From Sneathiella aquimaris (GTDB lineage: Bacteria > Pseudomonadota > Alphaproteobacteria > Sneathiellales > Sneathiellaceae): a DNA stretch of 64,000 bases. The position numbers and the translations under genes were made by a program. Positions 13,156 through 23,792 of the stretch are shown piece by piece. Numbering within the stretch: position 1 is the stretch's first letter; each line of letters begins with the position of its first letter. The DNA is taken from the NCBI RefSeq assembly GCF_026409565.1, contig NZ_CP112881.1:3479501-3543500 (forward strand), in the 5' to 3' direction. The notes below the pieces were generated by a model. It was given only the letters and a program-made list of their open reading frames with translations, was not told where the DNA came from and did no database searches.

Positions 13156-14001
13156 ATGAGTCTGACCGAATTGCAACCGGTTATTGAAGCGGCATGGGAC
13201 AACCGGGATGCCATTTCTCCTGCCACAAAAGGTGAACAACGCGATGCCATCGAGGCAACCCTTCTCGCACTTGATAGCGGTGCTGCCCGTGTTGCAGAAA
13301 AAACAACAGATGGCTGGCATGTCAATCAGTGGCTTAAAAAGGCGGTTCTGCTGTCTTTTCGCCTGAACGATATGGAAATGATTGCAGGTGCGCCGGGGAC
13401 AAACAGCAATTGGTATGACAAAGTTCCCAGTAAATTCGAAGGCTGGACAGAGGACACTTTTAAAGCCGCTGGCTTTCGGGCGGTTCCAGGATGTGTCGTG
13501 CGCCGCAGTGCCCATATCGCACCAAACGTGGTCTTGATGCCTAGTTTTGTTAATCTTGGCGCTTTTGTTGATTCTGGAACAATGGTTGATACTTGGGCCA
13601 CTGTTGGCTCTTGCGCGCAGATCGGCAAAGATGTGCATCTATCTGGCGGTGTTGGCATTGGTGGCGTTCTGGAGCCACTTCAGGCCGGTCCTGTGATCAT
13701 CGAAGATAACTGTTTTATCGGCGCCCGCTCTGAAGTGGTTGAAGGGGTTGTTGTTGAAACAGGTGCCGTTCTGTCCATGGGTGTGTTTATTGGTGCCTCC
13801 ACAAAAATTGTGAACCGGGAAACCGGCGAAGTTCATATCGGACGCGTCCCGGCTTACTCCGTCGTTGTCCCAGGAAGCCTTCCCGGAAAGCCATTGCCGG
13901 ACGGAACACCCGGACCAAGCCTGTATTGTGCTGTGATTGTTAAAACTGTTGACGAGCAAACACGGTCGAAAACATCCATCAACGACTTGCTACGCGACTA
14001 A
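13156..14001 (+). CDS. dapD: Tetrahydrodipicolinate N-succinyltransferase
   Basis: 281 residues, normal for DapD. It transfers succinyl from succinyl-CoA to tetrahydrodipicolinate in the succinylase branch of lysine/meso-diaminopimelate synthesis. The N-terminal helical domain contains [13 protein letters not shown], and the left-handed beta-helix is visible as hexapeptide repeats from about residue 115 ([20 protein letters not shown]), including [20 protein letters not shown]. It ends with SINDLLRD. The later desuccinylase gene dapE lies 1 kb downstream. Confidence 0.97.
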
Positions 14002-14021
14002 GCAACGTTTTATGCCATCTG

Positions 14022-14050
14022 AAAAACCCGCCTTAAACGGCGGGTTTTTT
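14022..14050. terminator. Intrinsic terminator after dapD, shared with the convergent DMT gene
   Basis: An 11-bp stem AAAAACCCGCC/GGCGGGTTTTT with a six-base loop and a T run. The loop carries the stop codon of the minus-strand transporter. A runs upstream allow use in both directions. Confidence 0.88.
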
Positions 14051-14920
14051 TCTGTTCTCGCGATAGACCATATATAATCCGCTCGCGGCAATAACCGCGG
14101 ATCCGACCCAGACATTAGAGGTTGGAATTTCATCAAATAGAACGATCCCAAGCAGCACTGCCCAGATCAAGGCTGTATATTCAAAGGGGGTAATGACCCC
14201 CACTTCACCAATTGTAAACGCCTTGATGATGAAAAAATTTCCGATTAAAGACAAAAACGCAACGATTGCGGCAACGCCAACATCAGCGACTGGCATGGGA
14301 ACCCAATAAAAAACAGACCCTGTCGCACCGCACAACATAACGACAAAATTCACGTAGAAGACAATCGTAAACGTGGCTTCTGTTGAGCCAAGCCAGCGAC
14401 TGCTGAGCATCAAAAAACAGTAGGCAAGGCTGCCACCCAGCACGAGAAAAGCCGCAGGATCAAAAACCTCGCTCGTTGGCTGTACAACGTAGAGAACGCC
14501 GCAAAATCCAACAAAAATTGCCCCCCATCGATGTATGCCGACCTTCTCTTTAAAAAACGGTACCGACAACGCTGTCATAACAAAGGGTGAAATGAAGAAG
14601 ATCACCGTGGCCTCCGCCAACCCCATGGAACGCAACGCGCTGAAAAAACAAAAAGGGGCAACAAAGCCCAACACCCCCCGCACGCCATGCGCAAAAACAC
14701 GATTGGTTTTGATCAGGCGCAGTCCACCCATAAAGGGCAACAATGCCAAAAGAACCACAACGTTCATAAGGCTGCGGACAAACAAAATCTGAAAAACCGA
14801 GTAGTCAGCGTGAACCAGCCATTTTGCCGCCGCATCCATTGTCGACATGGTAACGATCGCCGCAACCATATAAAGAATACCGGTTAGATTATTAATGCCG
14901 GGGGCGCTGTGTGATGTCAT
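14033..14920 (-). CDS. DMT/EamA family transporter
   Basis: 295 residues with about ten hydrophobic helices in two EamA repeats; the second half contains FTIGEVGVITPFEYTALIWAVLLGIVLFDEIP, the EamA signature. The first repeat has MDAAAKWLVHADYSVFQILFVRSL. It is a predicted inner-membrane drug/metabolite transporter, similar to those annotated as S-adenosylmethionine or amino-acid carriers; substrate cannot be read from sequence. It is transcribed against dapD and dapE and interrupts the dap pair. Confidence 0.85.
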   Translation of the reverse strand: MTSHSAPGINNLTGILYMVAAIVTMSTMDAAAKWLVHADYSVFQILFVRSLMNVVVLLALLPFMGGLRLIKTNRVFAHGVRGVLGFVAPFCFFSALRSMGLAEATVIFFISPFVMTALSVPFFKEKVGIHRWGAIFVGFCGVLYVVQPTSEVFDPAAFLVLGGSLAYCFLMLSSRWLGSTEATFTIVFYVNFVVMLCGATGSVFYWVPMPVADVGVAAIVAFLSLIGNFFIIKAFTIGEVGVITPFEYTALIWAVLLGIVLFDEIPTSNVWVGSAVIAASGLYMVYRENRKKPAV

Positions 14921-15029
14921 GGGCTAGCCTGCGAAAGAGAGGAAAAACAGACTTATCCCGGATTGCCTTGCGCGTCAATTATCCGTCAAAGACATTGACC
15001 CTCCAGAACGGGAACGGTAAAGGACATAC

Positions 15030-16199
15030 ATGACTTATATGGATGATCTTGATGTTGTTACGCTCACGCAGGAGCTTATGCGCTGCCCAAGTGTAACCCC
15101 CGCCGACGCAGGCGCTCTAAATGTTCTGCAATCTGTCCTTGAAAAAATCGGTTTTGACTGTCACCGGCTGACTTTTTCAGATGACAATACGCCAGATGTT
15201 GAAAATCTTTACGCAAGATATGGCACAGGCGCACCTAATTTCTGTTTTGCCGGCCATACTGACGTTGTCCCTCCCGGCGACCTTAACTCGTGGAGTGTTG
15301 ATCCGTTTGATTCCGTCATCAAAGACGGGATGCTGTACGGTCGCGGCGCGGCCGACATGAAAGCTGCTGTCGCGTGTTTTGCCGTCTCTGCCCAACGCCT
15401 GATCAAATCCCGCAAAGGAAAATTTGACGGATCAATTAGCCTGTTGATTACAGGGGATGAAGAAGGGCCCGCCATCAACGGAACCCGCAAAGTACTTGAA
15501 TGGATGTCAGAACAGGGCGAGCGGATTGATCATTGCCTTGTAGGAGAACCGACAAACCCGAAGGCACTCGGTGACATGGTCAAAATTGGTCGACGCGGTT
15601 CATTCACCGGCTTTTTGACCGTCAATGGCACAGAAGGACATGTCGCCTACCCGCATTTGGCGGACAATCCTGTTCCTCACCTGATCGCCATGATGTCTGC
15701 GTTGGATCATATGCATCTTGATGATGGCAGCGCCCATTTCCAGCAAAGCAATCTTGAGTTTACCACCGTAGATGTGGGAAACCCTGCGACCAATGTTATC
15801 CCGCCGGCTGCCAGAGCGACTTTCAATATCCGCTTTAACACAGAACATACGCTTGACGGTCTGGATCATAAAATACGATCCCTGCTTGATGAAATTGCCA
15901 AGGACCGAAATGCCAACTATGATCTGAAAGTCCTTAAAAATTCTGAGCCCTTCCTGACAAGCGAGGGGGATTTCAGCAGCTTGGTTGCGCAGTCCATTGC
16001 GGAGCATCTTGGCACAAAACCTGAGCTTTCAACAACGGGGGGCACATCTGATGCCCGCTATATTAAAAATTATTGCCCCGTTGTCGAATTTGGCCTTGTC
16101 GGGCAGACGATGCATAAAGTCGATGAACATGTCGCTGTCGACGATATCGAGCAGTTAGCCAATATTTACACGTCAATTTTAGATGGATATTTCAAATAA
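15030..16199 (+). CDS. dapE: Succinyl-diaminopimelate desuccinylase
   Basis: 389 residues, M20 peptidase family. It releases succinate from N-succinyl-L,L-diaminopimelate. The metal-site motifs are [27 protein letters not shown] and LVGEPT, and a C-terminal [10 protein letters not shown] together with [10 protein letters not shown] supplies the last His, all in the DapE style. AAAGGA precedes the start. A small membrane protein gene follows after four bases. A second, clearly different M20 protein is present in the AST operon at 18.7 kb. Confidence 0.95.
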
Positions 16200-16777: not shown

Positions 16778-17272
16778 CTATTGCAGAAGTGCGCCTAGTG
16801 GATATCCGGTAAATTTTTTGTTCTCTGTCATCACCACATGGGTTTTGATGTTCACCACATTGGCACCCGAATTTAGAAGATTTTCGTTTACTTCGTGATA
16901 CCGCTCCATATCCGCGCAAACGATGCGCAGGATAAAATCACATCCTCCGCTCACAGTATCGCACTGGACAACCTCTGACACCCCTTCAACAAACTGCTCA
17001 AACACACGAAAATCCTGCTGGCGGTGGCTTTCCAATGTCACCATGGCGATGCAGGTAATATACCGGCATAACCGATCCAGATTTACCGTGCCTTGATAGG
17101 GGCCTATACACCCGTCTTCTTCAAGTTTGCGAACCCGAGCCAGACAAGAGCTCGGGGACAGCCCCACCTGTTCGGCCAATTGCTGGTTGGTTATTCTCGC
17201 CGACGTCTGCAATGACGAAATAATATTCTGATCAATTGCATCAAGCACCCGCTTACCGCTGCTATTACTCAA
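16778..17272 (-). CDS. Lrp/AsnC family transcriptional regulator
   Basis: 164 residues. The N-terminal winged helix reads LDAIDQNIISSLQTSARITNQQLAEQVGLSPSSCLARVRKLEEDG, followed by the RAM/AsnC ligand-binding domain with VQCDTVSGGCDFILRIVCADMERYHEV. The start is TTG at 17270-17272, supported by a strong AAAGGAGAG seven bases upstream. Such regulators bind DNA as dimers to octamers and sense amino acids. It is divergent from the AST operon across 260 bases, so it is the likely arginine- or ornithine-responsive controller of that operon; this is inference. Confidence 0.88.
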   Translation of the reverse strand: MSNSSGKRVLDAIDQNIISSLQTSARITNQQLAEQVGLSPSSCLARVRKLEEDGCIGPYQGTVNLDRLCRYITCIAMVTLESHRQQDFRVFEQFVEGVSEVVQCDTVSGGCDFILRIVCADMERYHEVNENLLNSGANVVNIKTHVVMTENKKFTGYPLGALLQ

Positions 17273-17392: not shown

Positions 17393-17437
17393 CCGAATAT
17401 AATTCGGCCACACCCCAATTATTCACATATTATTCGG
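17393..17437. promoter_or_regulatory. Candidate Lrp/AsnC operator in the AST control region
   Basis: CCGAATATAATTCGG (17393-17407) is a perfect 6-bp inverted repeat around a three-base AT centre. A second half site ATTCGG follows at 17432-17437, 30 bases from the first, close to three helical turns, with a weaker ATTCGA at 17450. AsnC-family sites are often 15-bp palindromes with AT centres. It lies 126-140 bases before the astC start. Confidence 0.5.
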
Positions 17438-17532
17438 TAAGGCACCCTAAATTCGAAACCCTATTCTCCATCAACCTTGCTACGCTACTGAACAATGCCT
17501 GACACAAAAGCCTGATATAAACTGGAGGAAAA

Positions 17533-18705
17533 ATGCCCCATCAAACCCTTATGGCAACATATGCCCCACCGGAAATCCTCTTTGAAAGGGGAGAAGGCTC
17601 CTATCTGATTACTAAAGAAGGAGAGCGGTATCTTGATTTCATTTCTGGGATCGCGGTAACTGGATTTGGGCACAGCCACCCTCACCTTGTTGGTGCCTTG
17701 AAAGACCAAGCCGATAAATACTGGCACACATCCAACATGTTCCGTGTGGAACAGGGAGAGCAGCTTGCTGACAGGCTTTGCAAACATAGCTTTGCTGATC
17801 GCGTCTTCTTTGGCAATTCCGGCGCTGAAGCTGTTGAGGCTGGCCTCAAGATAATGCGCCGGTATCATTATGATCGCGGTGATACTAAACGGACCCGTAT
17901 TATCGGAATGGAAAATGCGTTTCATGGTCGGACGATCGCAACAGTTGCCGCCGCGGGCAACCCCAGCCACATCAAAGGCTTCTTCACTGGCGATCTGGAA
18001 TGTGATCACGTCCCCTTCGGCGATATTGACGCGCTTCGTGCGGCCATTTCCGATGAAACCGCAGGTGTCATTCTAGAGCCGGTTCAGGGAGAAGGCGGTG
18101 TTCTGCCTGCCCCGAAAGGCTATCTTGAAGCTGTCAGGGCCCTGTGCGATGAAACCGGCATTTTAATGATGGTCGATGAAATCCAATGCGGCATGGGCCG
18201 GACAGGGAAACTCTTCGCCTATGAATGGTCTGACATTGAACCTGATATTCTTTCGTCTGCAAAAGGGCTCGGCGGCGGTTTTCCAATCGGCGCCTGTCTG
18301 GCGACGGAAAAAGCCGCAGCCTGTATGGTCATTGGAACGCACGGATCAACCTTTGGCGGTAACCCACTCGCGACTGCAGTTGGCAACGCAGTGCTTGATC
18401 TGTTGCTTGAAGACGGTTTTTTACAGCAGGTTCAGGAAACAGTAGAAACGCTAAGGCAGGGATTGGTCGAACTGACACAGAAACATCCCCATGTCATCAG
18501 TGATGTTCAGGGCCTGGGGTTGATGCTGGGTGTCAAATGTGTTGTTCCGAACACTGAATTGCTCGCTCGCCTCAGGGATGCCCGGCTTTTATCTGGCCGT
18601 GCTGGGACTGATATCCTCAGGCTTCTGCCACCGCTTAATCTGTCAGAGGAAGACCTTGCAAAGGGCCTCCGCATCATTGACGACGTTTGTACAGATTGGA
18701 AATAG
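17533..18705 (+). CDS. astC: Succinylornithine transaminase (class III aminotransferase)
   Basis: 390 residues, PLP-dependent. The cofactor pocket is visible: NSGAEA (95-100), VDEIQCGMGRTGK with D215, and the Schiff-base lysine K244 in SSAKGLGGGFPIG. The enzyme converts N-succinylornithine and 2-oxoglutarate to succinylglutamate semialdehyde and glutamate. By sequence it could equally be acetylornithine aminotransferase ArgD, and such enzymes often serve both roles; the AST neighbours decide the call. TGGAGGAAAA precedes the ATG. It is the first gene of the AST operon. Confidence 0.88.
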   Translation: MPHQTLMATYAPPEILFERGEGSYLITKEGERYLDFISGIAVTGFGHSHPHLVGALKDQADKYWHTSNMFRVEQGEQLADRLCKHSFADRVFFGNSGAEAVEAGLKIMRRYHYDRGDTKRTRIIGMENAFHGRTIATVAAAGNPSHIKGFFTGDLECDHVPFGDIDALRAAISDETAGVILEPVQGEGGVLPAPKGYLEAVRALCDETGILMMVDEIQCGMGRTGKLFAYEWSDIEPDILSSAKGLGGGFPIGACLATEKAAACMVIGTHGSTFGGNPLATAVGNAVLDLLLEDGFLQQVQETVETLRQGLVELTQKHPHVISDVQGLGLMLGVKCVVPNTELLARLRDARLLSGRAGTDILRLLPPLNLSEEDLAKGLRIIDDVCTDWK

Positions 18706-18714
18706 GGTTTATCC

Positions 18715-19944
18715 ATGTCATTACCTTCTTTTCTATCCTGGATCGACGACCAGCAGTCCGCAATGGTCGAAACTGTCTGTCAGTGGGCGCAGATCAATTC
18801 AGGCAGTGACAACCTGGAAGGTCTGGCCGTTATGGCCGACCACCTTCAGAAGGCGTTCGACCGAACCGGCGGTCAATCCGAACTGCTGGCATCCGACCCG
18901 ATGCCGTTGGTGACAAAGGACGGATATGAGGACAGTCGGGCCGTTGGTCAGATGCTAAAGGTATCGATAAGACCCGAGGCAAACAGGCGCGTTCTTTTGT
19001 GCGGTCACATGGATACCGTGTTTGATAAGGGTAGTCCGTTTCAATCCTGCACGGATCTGGGAGATGGAAAAATCGGCGGTCCGGGAACCGCTGATATGAA
19101 AGGCGGTCTGATGGTTATCCTGACCGCCTTGCAAGCATTTGAAAGAAGCCCGGACAAAAGTCAAATTGGTTGGGATGTGTTGATCAATGCTGATGAAGAA
19201 ATTGGTTCTTTTGGCTCGCGACAAACGATGGCCCATCTTGCAAATAAAGCGGATTTAGGTCTGGTATACGAGCCTTCACTTGCTGATGGCACTTTGGCGG
19301 GTGCCCGTAAAGGAAGCGGAAATTTCACTCTCGTTGTGCGCGGAAAAGCCGCTCATGCCGGCCGGGATCACCATTTGGGTCGCAATGCAATCGCCGCCCT
19401 GTCAGAAGCGGTTGGCAAGATCCATATGCTCTCGGGGCAGCGCCAGGATTTAACTGTTAATGTTGGGCATATATCAGGTGGAGGCGCACTTAATGTTGTC
19501 CCGGACCTTGCAATCTGCCGACTGAATGTCCGAATAAAGGCCTCAGAAGACAAAGACTGGTTTATTCAGGCGCTTGAAAAAATTACGGCAGAAACCAATG
19601 GTCAAGACGGTATTTCTGCCCAGCTGCATGGTCAGTTTACCCGCCCACCAAAACCGATGAGCCCTTCCTTCCGGCATCTATTCGATATCCTGCAGCAATG
19701 TGGGGAAGATCTGAACCTCCCGATAAACCAAAAACCAACGGGAGGATGTTGTGATGGGAATAACCTTGCCGCAGCGGGATTGCCTAATATCGATACCTTG
19801 GGGGTACGCGGCGCCAATATTCATTCAGATCAGGAATACATGATCAGCGAGAGTTTATCCGAGCGAGCCAAACTTACCGCCCTCCTACTCCACAAACTGG
19901 CGGTGGGCGACGTTACGTTTCCAAAGCGAGAGGAACCACAATGA
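18715..19944 (+). CDS. M20 metallohydrolase of glutamate carboxypeptidase (CPG2) type; candidate succinylglutamate desuccinylase
   Basis: 409 residues. The two-zinc site is complete: H98 in GHMDTVF, D127 in GPGTADMKGG, the catalytic/ligand pair E161-E162 in ADEEIGS, E186 in VYEPS and H370 in NIHSDQE. The spacings 29, 35, 24 and 184 nearly equal those I recall for carboxypeptidase G2 (H112, D141, E176, E200, H385), and R310 in TRPPKP falls where CPG2 has the Arg that holds the terminal glutamate. CPG2 cuts N-acyl-glutamates. It sits between astC and astA (four-base ATGA overlap with astA), no astE (M14 family) is present, and the pathway's last substrate is N-succinylglutamate. The desuccinylase role is therefore inferred and fits well; other acyl-amino-acid substrates remain possible. 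Confidence 0.72.
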   Translation: MSLPSFLSWIDDQQSAMVETVCQWAQINSGSDNLEGLAVMADHLQKAFDRTGGQSELLASDPMPLVTKDGYEDSRAVGQMLKVSIRPEANRRVLLCGHMDTVFDKGSPFQSCTDLGDGKIGGPGTADMKGGLMVILTALQAFERSPDKSQIGWDVLINADEEIGSFGSRQTMAHLANKADLGLVYEPSLADGTLAGARKGSGNFTLVVRGKAAHAGRDHHLGRNAIAALSEAVGKIHMLSGQRQDLTVNVGHISGGGALNVVPDLAICRLNVRIKASEDKDWFIQALEKITAETNGQDGISAQLHGQFTRPPKPMSPSFRHLFDILQQCGEDLNLPINQKPTGGCCDGNNLAAAGLPNIDTLGVRGANIHSDQEYMISESLSERAKLTALLLHKLAVGDVTFPKREEPQ

Positions 19945-20960
19945 TTATTATCAGGCGCGCCCGACTTACTGACCTGAATTGCCTGATGGACATCTCAACA
20001 GCCACAGGAAGCGGTATGTCTTCCATGCCGACAAGCCTTACCTCTTGGGAAAGTAAACTGCACAAGAGTGAAGAAAGTTTTGCCTTGGAAACAACCCATG
20101 GCAACGGCGAAATTTACTTCATGGTTATGGAGGACACCGCATCAGGAAAGCTGGTTGGGACTACGGCCATTTATGCTGGCGTTGGACTGGATCAACCCTT
20201 TTACTCCTATCGTGTCTCAACCCTGATTTCGATATCCAAGGAACTGGAAAAGAAAAACAAGCTGGAGGTCCTGCATCTTGTGAATGATTTCACGGGCAGT
20301 ACCGAGATTGGATCTCTATATCTCGACCCCGATTATCGCAAAGATGGCAATGGGCGTTTTCTATCCAGATGCCGGTTCCTGATGCTTGCTGATTTCCCTG
20401 AACGATTTGACGATACAATTATCGCCGAAATGCGTGGATGGCAGGACAAAGAAGGCCACTCCCCCTTTTGGGAGCAGCTTGGCCGAAAATTCTTTGGTTT
20501 AGGGTTTGAAAATGCAGACTTCATGAGTGCGGTCAAGGGGAACCAGTTCATTACAGATCTAATGCCCCGCCATCCAATTTATGTAGATCTTTTGCCTGAC
20601 GAAGCCCGAAATGTCATTGGCATTCCACATGACGCATCGTCTCCCGCGCTGCGTCTACTCGAAAAAGAGGGATTTCGGAAAAGCGGGTATGTCGACATCT
20701 TCGATGGCGGCCCAACCGTTCAGTGTCAGATGAGAAATATTTCCACGGTCCAACATTCTGATCGGCGGATCGTCTCTGAAATTCTGGCAAATGATAGCCT
20801 GTCTGACGATCCCTATATGATCAGCAATACCAACCTCAAAAATTATCGATTTGTTCGGGCGCCCCTTATCCTTGCAGAGGACAGCACCGTGCATATCACG
20901 CAAGAAACCGCCGAAACTTTGCAGGTTGAACCCGGACAGACCATCAGCTTTGCGAAATAA
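19941..20960 (+). CDS. astA: Arginine N-succinyltransferase
   Basis: 339 residues, the family's normal length. It transfers succinyl from succinyl-CoA to the alpha-amino group of arginine, the first AST step. Recognisable parts are the GNAT-like N-terminus [28 protein letters not shown], the [24 protein letters not shown] acetyl-CoA-fold region and [12 protein letters not shown]-like [20 protein letters not shown]. The ATG overlaps the stop of the M20 gene (ATGA). An untypically large gap of 16 bases follows before astD. Confidence 0.95.
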
Positions 20961-20976
20961 AGCAAAAGGAGACACC

Positions 20977-22446
20977 ATGACACAGGCCACTCTTTTTATC
21001 GGCGGGCACTGGCAGTCCGCAAATGGTACGCCTTTTTCGTCTGAAAACCCACAGACAGGAGAACAGATCTGGCGCGGGAAATCAGCAACAGAGCAGGATG
21101 TTGACGATGCGGTACAAGCCGCGTCACAGGCTTTTGAAAAATGGGCCCTGATGCCGCTTGCCGATCGCATAGAATTTATTCGCGCCTATCAAATTATTCT
21201 TAAAGAAAGAAAAGAAGAGATCGCCTCGCTGATCGCATCTGAAACCGGTAAACCTCTTTGGGAATCCCTGACCGAGGCTGCCACCATGATCGGAAAGGTC
21301 GATCTGTCTCTTTCTGCCTACGATGCCCGTACGGGCCAAAAAGAAACACCAATCCCTGGTGCCACCGCACGCCTTCGGCACAAACCCCATGGCGTTATTG
21401 CTGTTTTTGGCCCCTATAATTTCCCCGGTCACCTGCCCAATGGTCACATTGTACCTGCGTTACTTGCAGGGAATTGCGTCATTTTTAAACCAAGTGAGCT
21501 TACGCCCGCTGTCGCTGAAAAAATGGTTCAATGCTGGGAGGACGCCAAATTACCAAACGGCGTCCTGAACCTTGTACAAGGCGGTGCCGATACGGGAATA
21601 GCCCTCAGCAGCCATGAGGGTATCGACGGTCTATTTTTTACCGGGAGTTCACGGACAGGCAGCTTGATCCATTCGGAATTCGGCGGTCGGCCCGGGAAGA
21701 TTCTAGCCCTTGAAATGGGCGGAAACAATCCGTTGATTGTTAGCAATGTTTCAGACATCAAAGGAGCGGTGTATCACACGGTGCAATCCGCTTTTGTAAC
21801 CGCCGGACAAAGATGCACCTGTGCCCGGCGGTTGATCTTACCCCAAAGCGACCAACGGAGTGCCTTTCTGGATCAACTGACCCAAACAACCCAGTCCATT
21901 CAGGTGGGCCCTGACAAAGCGGACAGCGTGCCCTTTATGGGAAGTGTCATTTCAAACAAAGCTGCAGATGGTATGCTTGCCGCGCAGGAAAACCTTATTC
22001 GGCTGGGCGGCAAAACGCTTGTAAAAATGGCCCGCCTGGAAGACGGAAAACCGTTCTTATCCCCCGGTCTTATTGACGTAACCGACATTTCAGAATTACC
22101 AGACGAAGAATATTTTGGCCCGCTTTTGCAAGTCATCAAAACTGATGATTTTAAATCAGCAATTCAAATAGCGAACAAAACACGCTTTGGTCTTTCCGCT
22201 GGTATTTTTACCGATGACCCCGCTGAATATGAAACCTTCCTTGCTTTATCCAAAGCAGGCATCGTCAATTGGAACAGACCGCTGACCGGTGCAAGCGGGG
22301 CGGCACCATTTGGCGGCATCGGGGCCAGCGGCAATCACCGGCCAAGTGCCTTTTACGCCGCAGACTATTGCGCCTATCCTGTTGCCTCTGTAGAGGCAGA
22401 CAAAGCCGATCTGCCCGAGACACTGACACCTGGGATCTCCTTATGA
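20977..22446 (+). CDS. astD: Succinylglutamate semialdehyde dehydrogenase
   Basis: 489 residues from the ATG at 20977 preceded by AAAGGAG; the frame is open further upstream inside astA but that part is not used. It is an aldehyde dehydrogenase with the oxyanion Asn in FGPYNFPGH (about N148), the general base E246 in LEMGGN and the nucleophile C280 in [10 protein letters not shown]. It oxidises N-succinylglutamate 5-semialdehyde to succinylglutamate with NAD. The stop overlaps the astB start (ATGA). Confidence 0.95.
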
Positions 22447-23792
22447 CTTTGAGTGCAGAAATAAATTTTGATGGCTTGGTAGGGCCAACCCATAACTTCG
22501 CCGGATTATCGCGTGGTAATGTCGCGTCTACGAAAAACCGTGATGCGTCCTCTCATCCCAAGGCGGCAGCCCTTCAAGGCCTTCAGAAGATGAAGTCCCT
22601 TATGGATATGGGGCTGGTGCAAGGGGTATTACCGCCCCTGGAACGCCCCCATACACCAACGCTACGGGCTCTGGGTTTCACTGGAACGGATGAACATATT
22701 CTCTCAACTGTACAAAAACAGGCGCCTCATCTGTTAGCATCAGTCTCCTCGGCTTCGTCCATGTGGGTCGCTAATGCTGCAACCGTTAGTCCAGCAGCCG
22801 ACACGACGGATGGCCGTACCCATTTCACACCGGCAAACCTGTCCGCAATGTTTCACAGATCCATCGAACATCCGGATACAGGGCGCATATTGAAGAAAAT
22901 TTTCTCGCACCCCGACCATTTTGCCCATCACGACGCCCTTCCACCAGGCTCCTTCTTTTCAGACGAAGGGGCGGCGAACCACACGCGACTGACACCTTCG
23001 GCAGAAAGCCCAGGCATTGAAATTTTCACCTATGGGCGCTCGGCCTTTGATCCTTCCACGCCTCGCCCCTCCCGATACCCAGCGCGGCAAACGCGGGAGG
23101 CAAGTGAAGCCGTTGCCCGAAATCATGGATTATCCATAAACCGCACCCTTTTCGTTCAACAAAATCCGGCCGTTATTGACGCCGGTGTCTTTCATAACGA
23201 TGTAATTGCAGTGGGCTCGGCAAACTGCCTCTTTTTCCATCAGGACGCTTTTTTAAACTCTGATGATTTTATTCAAAACTTGAAACGCTGCTTTGCTGGC
23301 AACCCCCTGTCTTTGATTGAAGTATCCCGAAAAGACGTGCCTGTAGAAGACGCTGTTGCATCCTATCTGTTTAATACGCAGCTGGTTCAGCTTCCCGGAG
23401 CAGAGAACGACCTGCAACTGATCGCTCCAATGGAGTGCAAAAACAATAACCGCGTATACGATTATCTGAACCGTTTATTGGCGCAAAACACACCGATAAA
23501 AACAATTCACTATAAAGAACTTCGGGAAAGTATGAACAATGGCGGAGGACCTGCCTGCCTGCGGTTACGGGTCAGCCTGTCCAAAGCAGAAAGAGACAGC
23601 CTGCAGACACGTGTTCTTCTTGATAATGCACTTTATGAAGATCTGGTAGCATGGGTCCACAAACATTACCGCGATACCCTCAGCCCGGCGGATTTAGCTG
23701 ATCCACAGCTGTTGCAGGAAAGCCGCGAAGCGTTGGATGACCTGACCGACATACTGAAATTAGGAAGCGTTTATCCGTTTCAGCTATCGTAA
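22443..23792 (+). CDS. astB: N-succinylarginine dihydrolase
   Basis: 449 residues. The N-terminus [24 protein letters not shown] is diagnostic. AstB belongs to the guanidino-group-modifying superfamily and converts succinylarginine to succinylornithine, two NH3 and CO2. Other family features are [22 protein letters not shown]-like [13 protein letters not shown] and a C-terminal [14 protein letters not shown] with the nucleophilic Cys. It ends the operon and overlaps the end of convergent truA by 13 bases, with no hairpin terminator between them. Confidence 0.96.

Follow-up and report, generated by a model that had tools for sequence, protein, structure and literature searches.

An M20 metallopeptidase gene, the second of five genes in an arginine succinyltransferase (AST) operon of Sneathiella aquimaris, lies in the stretch of contig NZ_CP112881.1 analysed here (64,000 nucleotides, referred to as the window, to whose positions all coordinates refer), and its product probably acts as a non-orthologous N-succinylglutamate desuccinylase. 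The family to which it belongs, NF005602/PRK07338, would have displaced AstE widely and not only in the genome of the window; judging from sequence, we put the probability of this reading at roughly 0.87. It is argued for by the operon itself, the absence of AstE, a complete set of M20/CPG2 catalytic residues, an arginine at the glutamate site and the exclusion of AstE across genomes. An earlier reading of the window from its letters (the sequence-only reading) had made the same proposal for this one protein, and the AstE absence, the mutual exclusion, the linkage to ast genes in distant taxa and the identity of the nearest solved structure, CPG2, all lend it support.

The order of the operon genes is astC-M20-astA-astD-astB (Table 1). 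Both this order and the lack of an M14-type astE in the cluster, as claimed by the sequence-only reading, were borne out by the NCBIfam searches, no AstE model being matched there. The M20 gene has an ATG start and encodes 409 amino acids, with Peptidase_M20 (PF01546, 85.3 bits) and M20_dimer (PF07687, 69.2 bits) domains; the five zinc ligands listed in that reading (H98, D127, E162, E186 and H370, spaced by 29, 35, 24 and 184 residues) and R310 are all present, as is the general base. The protein is a full-length member of NF005602 (563.8 bits; cut-off 357), a model labelled “hydrolase” which carries no specific function, the function being proposed in the present analysis. No AstE/aspartoacylase-type domain was found among its Pfam matches, which comprise M20, M20_dimer and a weak M28, and the AstE model was absent from the best 25 of its 53 NCBIfam matches. 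The M20 family resembles AstE (TIGR03242; PF24827/PF04952) in the reaction proposed, in its position in the pathway and in a complementary phyletic distribution; however, the two families are unrelated.

The distribution of the two families was followed in two surveys. Among 190 genomes of the Alphaproteobacteria, AstB was found in seven and NF005602 over its cut-off in five (nine at E<=1e-70), each of these five genes having astB no more than 3 kb away according to the listed coordinates; AstE at E<=1e-30 was found in none of the 190. The second survey covered 398 genomes of the phylum, with thresholds of E<=1e-60 for AstB, E<=1e-90 for NF005602 and E<=1e-30 for AstE. AstB was matched in 102 genomes (82 over the curated cut-off), NF005602 in 36 (all 36 over it) and AstE in 77 (58 over it), scoring for the last two counts having covered the few top first-look candidates of each genome. 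The 102 AstB genomes divide into 65 with AstE only, 35 with M20 only, none with both and two (G110 and G522) with neither; that is, the M20 family was found where the AST pathway occurs without AstE and was absent where AstE was present. The sequence-only reading had suggested looking for the same M20 gene in other astE-less AST operons; these 35 AstB genomes without AstE carry a gene of its family. Within the class of the window, 33 of 35 AstB genomes in the phylum survey carried M20 and none carried AstE; 65 of the 67 from other classes had AstE, and G377 and G474, the other two, had an M20 gene in an ast cluster. The two surveys together contain 36 distinct AstB genomes of the Alphaproteobacteria, 33 of which have the M20 family. 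Together with its occurrence in many Gammaproteobacteria, this means that the proposed substitution of AstE by the M20 gene is supported, but not as the oddity of a single operon. Twelve genomes in the phylum survey had AstE without an AstB match; for M20 there was only one such genome (G541), in which the gene adjoins astA and astD. Fisher tests gave p values of 2.6e-25 for the exclusion of AstE and M20 and of 3.7e-22 for the co-occurrence of M20 with AstB, both of which are too small owing to kinship among the genomes.

The linkage was also found in loci from named organisms, for which the best 80 were taken from a pattern scan with at least 596 pattern matches and at least 589 relatives. 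By tblastn, the distance from the M20 gene to astA, astD or astB is at most 5 kb in 75 of these 80 loci and at most 400 bp in 70; four of the unlinked five (L116, L176, L185 and L191) end no more than 0.75 kb downstream of the M20 gene. According to their titles, 29 of the 80 are from Gammaproteobacteria and one is a metagenome-assembled genome of the Desulfobacterales, and therefore the linkage is not the habit of one class; the genera include Neptunomonas, Marinobacterium, Oceanospirillum, Endozoicomonas, Hydrocarboniphaga, Nevskia, Legionella and others, each of which we take to belong to the Gammaproteobacteria. For the named organisms AstE was sought within the loci, genome-wide absence not being checked there: a profile built from eight loci had no match in the 80, nor in 17 AST-region loci (some without an M20 gene), and the same profile matched 27 of 30 astB loci of other classes. 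In eight of 16 loci looked at within the 80, titled Neptunomonas, Oceanospirillaceae, Marinobacterium, Oceanospirillum, Endozoicomonas and Pseudomonadales, two astA paralogues follow the M20 gene in tandem, presumably resembling the AruF/AruG pair.

Three alphaproteobacterial genomes had AstA and AstB and neither AstE nor M20 at the thresholds used: G110 (L031, L209), G522 (L100, L210) and, from the class survey, G116 (L032). No obvious hydrolase candidate was seen in the open reading frame (ORF) lists around astA in G110 or around astA and astB in G522, where by reading an astD-like ORF adjoins astA; in G116, a 15-kb contig of a 150-contig assembly carries astA-astD-astB, so that the gene could be missing. 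These genomes lend some weight to the alternative in which a different hydrolase performs the final step and the substrate of the M20 enzyme is some other acyl amino acid adjacent to the pathway, for example N-acetylornithine, N-succinylornithine or an arginine-containing peptide, as do the best score of the operon transaminase, which is to acetylornithine transaminase, and the membership of ArgE and DapE in M20 families. However, the M20 protein scores 82.6 bits against the ArgE cut-off of 297.7 (TIGR01892) and 54.5 against the DapE cut-off of 361.8 (TIGR01246), wide misses on which its identity as either enzyme was rejected. The genome already encodes two other M20 proteins that pass the ArgE model and a separate DapE (O_L006, the window's own, at 15030-16199), the last without an equivalent of R310 or K313. 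Moreover, a side activity would not predict the exclusion of AstE, the two enzymes occurring together in none of the 102 AstB genomes, and we consider this alternative unlikely.

It is also conceivable, if very improbable, that AstE activity is supplied from elsewhere in the genome and that the M20 gene is accessory. The genome is a single 3.94-Mb contig listed as 100% complete, and the whole-genome search for astE that the sequence-only reading had recommended returned no protein over the AstE cut-off: TIGR03242 gave one weak match (23.8 bits; cut-off 305.65) and PF04952 none in the genome, an E. coli positive control being matched in both searches. PF24827, the AstE/aspartoacylase catalytic domain, which we take to be a peptidase-type M14 domain, matches three proteins of the genome (G000; L001, L002 and L003), and the weak AstE match is to the one in L002, which has a RimK-like gene as neighbour. 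One of the three, however, is the ectoine enzyme DoeB with DoeA adjoining (557.1 bits; cut-off 402.7), and the other two fall below every NCBIfam cut-off listed for them and are not close to the ast genes. After the TIGR03242, PF04952 and PF24827 searches, an AstE hidden elsewhere in the genome was rejected. By reading only, the neighbours of these two proteins are the RimK-like gene for one and LysR/GntR-like regulators for the other.

The nearest solved structure to the M20 protein is CPG2 (glucarpidase; PDB 1cg2, 6xj5), an enzyme that frees glutamate from N-acylglutamates. MAFFT pairs H98, D127, E162, E186, H370 and R310 with H112, D141, E176, E200, H385 and R324 of CPG2, whose numbering is anchored on H112; the match of R310 to Arg324, presumably the glutamate-binding residue, agrees with the sequence-only reading and holds in 35 of 35 family sequences. 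In these 35, which were found by profile, R198, R217, R310, K313, C346, G348 and N349 are invariant and N350 is kept in 34. The same seven residues occur in all 113 rows of a larger, partly motif-selected set and N350 in 112, counts in which the protein of the window figures twice (125 M20-gene loci less 13 duplicates gave 112, to which it was added as its own row) and which are biased for the 80 loci chosen by the patterns GG[VC]C[DE]GNN and PGxADMKGG. CPG2 lacks the family motif GGxC[DE]GNN and has T213, A232, F327, T361, A363, A364 and Y365 in place of R198, R217, K313, C346, G348, N349 and N350, sharing only R310 of the invariant signature residues. In a comparison with 17 other M20 rows, of which several aligned poorly (O_L023 apparently in the wrong frame, O_L004 and O_L005 misaligned at the metal site; O_L195 unused), K313, C346 and N350 occur in none and R217 in two; R198 is common, being carried by DapE and by the weaker relatives L020-L022, which also share R310. 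In a tree of 43 rows (omitting O_L004, O_L005, O_L009, O_L010 and O_L023, and with five of the 35 requested family names removed as duplicates), the family falls on one side of a branch with 98/99 support, beside CPG2 and L020-L022, although the root is a midpoint and CPG2, O_L011, O_L012 and O_L020 have long branches. The M20 proteins of G473 (L079), a genome of the window's class, and Kordiimonas laminariae (L119) are nearly identical (tree branches of 0.0045 and 0.0038), in keeping with that class being the Alphaproteobacteria. The family differs from CPG2 in its separate branch and in its AST-operon context. The kinship with CPG2 and the R310-R324 match might also be taken to indicate a true glutamate carboxypeptidase, a folate or peptide hydrolase present in the operon by chance, yet the linkage to ast genes recurs in 75 of the 80 named loci, the cut-off of the corresponding model is missed, and K313, C346 and N350 separate the family from CPG2 and the other aligned rows, making this explanation scarcely credible.

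Several observations weigh against a desuccinylase role and should be borne in mind. The M20 protein is far under the cut-off of the glutamate carboxypeptidase model of the CPG2 type (NF004788/PRK06133; 217.9 bits vs 349), and R198, invariant in the family, is not special to it. The three genomes with neither enzyme may use something else to run the AST pathway. In G322 the M20 gene stands apart from the ast cluster, G541 has no AstB match at the threshold used, and the fifth unlinked locus, L172 (Endozoicomonas), has 5.7 kb downstream of the M20 gene without astA, astD or astB. The limited scoring of candidates in the phylum survey, the 19 of 77 AstE matches under the curated cut-off and the inflation of significance by kinship count in the same direction. 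In G456 and G543 the M20 gene lies with astA and astD and is separate from astB; taken together, G110, G522, G116, G322, G456 and G543 may reflect either the existence of a third enzyme or pathways that are incomplete.

As a desuccinylase, the M20 enzyme would perform the last AST step as a di-zinc amidohydrolase, converting N-succinyl-L-glutamate to succinate and L-glutamate. The two zincs would be held by H98, D127, E162, E186 and H370, E161 would act as general base, and R310, like its counterpart in CPG2, would bind the substrate on its glutamate side. As N-succinylglutamate has three carboxylates and the family has several invariant basic residues around the kept glutamate-site arginine, a tricarboxylate-type pocket is suggested, in which R217 and K313, and perhaps R198, may from their conservation bind the further carboxylates. 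A broader scenario, which we offer tentatively and at somewhat less than even odds, is that a dedicated M20 clade on the glutamate carboxypeptidase side gained such a pocket, with R217, K313 and GGxC[DE]GNN alongside the older R310, and took the place of AstE in almost all Alphaproteobacteria that have the AST pathway and in several separate gammaproteobacterial lineages, and that a third desuccinylase is hidden in the few AST genomes where neither enzyme was found.

No paper assigning succinylglutamate desuccinylase function to the M20 family was found among the open-licence papers that the searches listed, judged by titles and abstract openings, and the main text of PMC9007349, that part of the article only, contains no occurrence of succinylglutamate, desuccinylase or astE. 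Fold, chemistry and reaction are all known already; what would be new, within those open-licence papers, is the pairing of NF005602 with succinylglutamate desuccinylation. If correct, this pairing would fill the one remaining gap in a classic pathway of arginine breakdown and nitrogen scavenging in a large bacterial group, give a name and a reaction to a curated family and aid annotation by tools that search for AstE alone. It would also be a clear example of one pathway slot filled by either of two unrelated zinc hydrolases, and provide a small residue set with which to test how a glutamate carboxypeptidase pocket could shift to N-succinylglutamate.

Table 1. The AST operon of the window and its upstream region.
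Feature	Position	Strand	Basis
Divergent Lrp/AsnC-family regulator	16778..17272	-	PF01037, PF13412, PF13404; NF008370 Lrp 104.7 bits, below cut-off 233
Perfect inverted repeat CCGAAT-ATA-ATTCGG	17393..17407	.	Upstream of astC, between divergent Lrp-family gene and astC; read from sequence
astC/argD-type succinylornithine/acetylornithine transaminase	17533..18705	+	NF002325, TIGR00707 over cut-off; TIGR03246 below
M20 metallopeptidase, proposed non-orthologous N-succinylglutamate desuccinylase (NF005602/PRK07338 family)	18715..19944	+	Pfam, NCBIfam, alignment
astA, arginine N-succinyltransferase	19941..20960	+	TIGR03243 404 bits (cut-off 284.35); TIGR03244 379.1 (391)
astD, succinylglutamate-semialdehyde dehydrogenase	20977..22446	+	ATG start; TIGR03240 767.8 bits (cut-off 579.3)
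astB, N-succinylarginine dihydrolase	22443..23792	+	TIGR03241 659.3 bits (cut-off 538.3)

The operon genes are closely packed, with 9 bp between astC and the M20 ORF, 16 bp in front of astD and 4-bp ATGA stop/start overlaps at M20/astA and astD/astB. The name astC is based on context, because the best score of the transaminase is to acetylornithine transaminase (NF002325, 564.9 bits, cut-off 372; TIGR00707, 449.6, cut-off 410.05) and the astC cut-off is missed (TIGR03246, 399.9 against 609.95). AstA is above the AOST subfamily cut-off and 12 bits under that of the AstA equivalog. The divergent Lrp/AsnC-family gene is a candidate regulator of the operon, and the inverted repeat a possible operator or regulator site; a second half-site, ATTCGG, lies near 17430-17439 in the same intergenic region. 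A short distance upstream of the operon are dapD and dapE (13156-16199).

Two genomes listed under the window's genus, G041 and G168, gave no match to AstB or to the M20 family at the survey thresholds, and therefore the ast operon was lost or gained inside the genus. In the Desulfobacterales locus (L147) the M20 gene adjoins astA, astD and astB not being found in its 17 kb, and transfer outside the main groups is possible. G386 (L110, L111, L112) has three AstB genes and two M20 copies in separate ast clusters.
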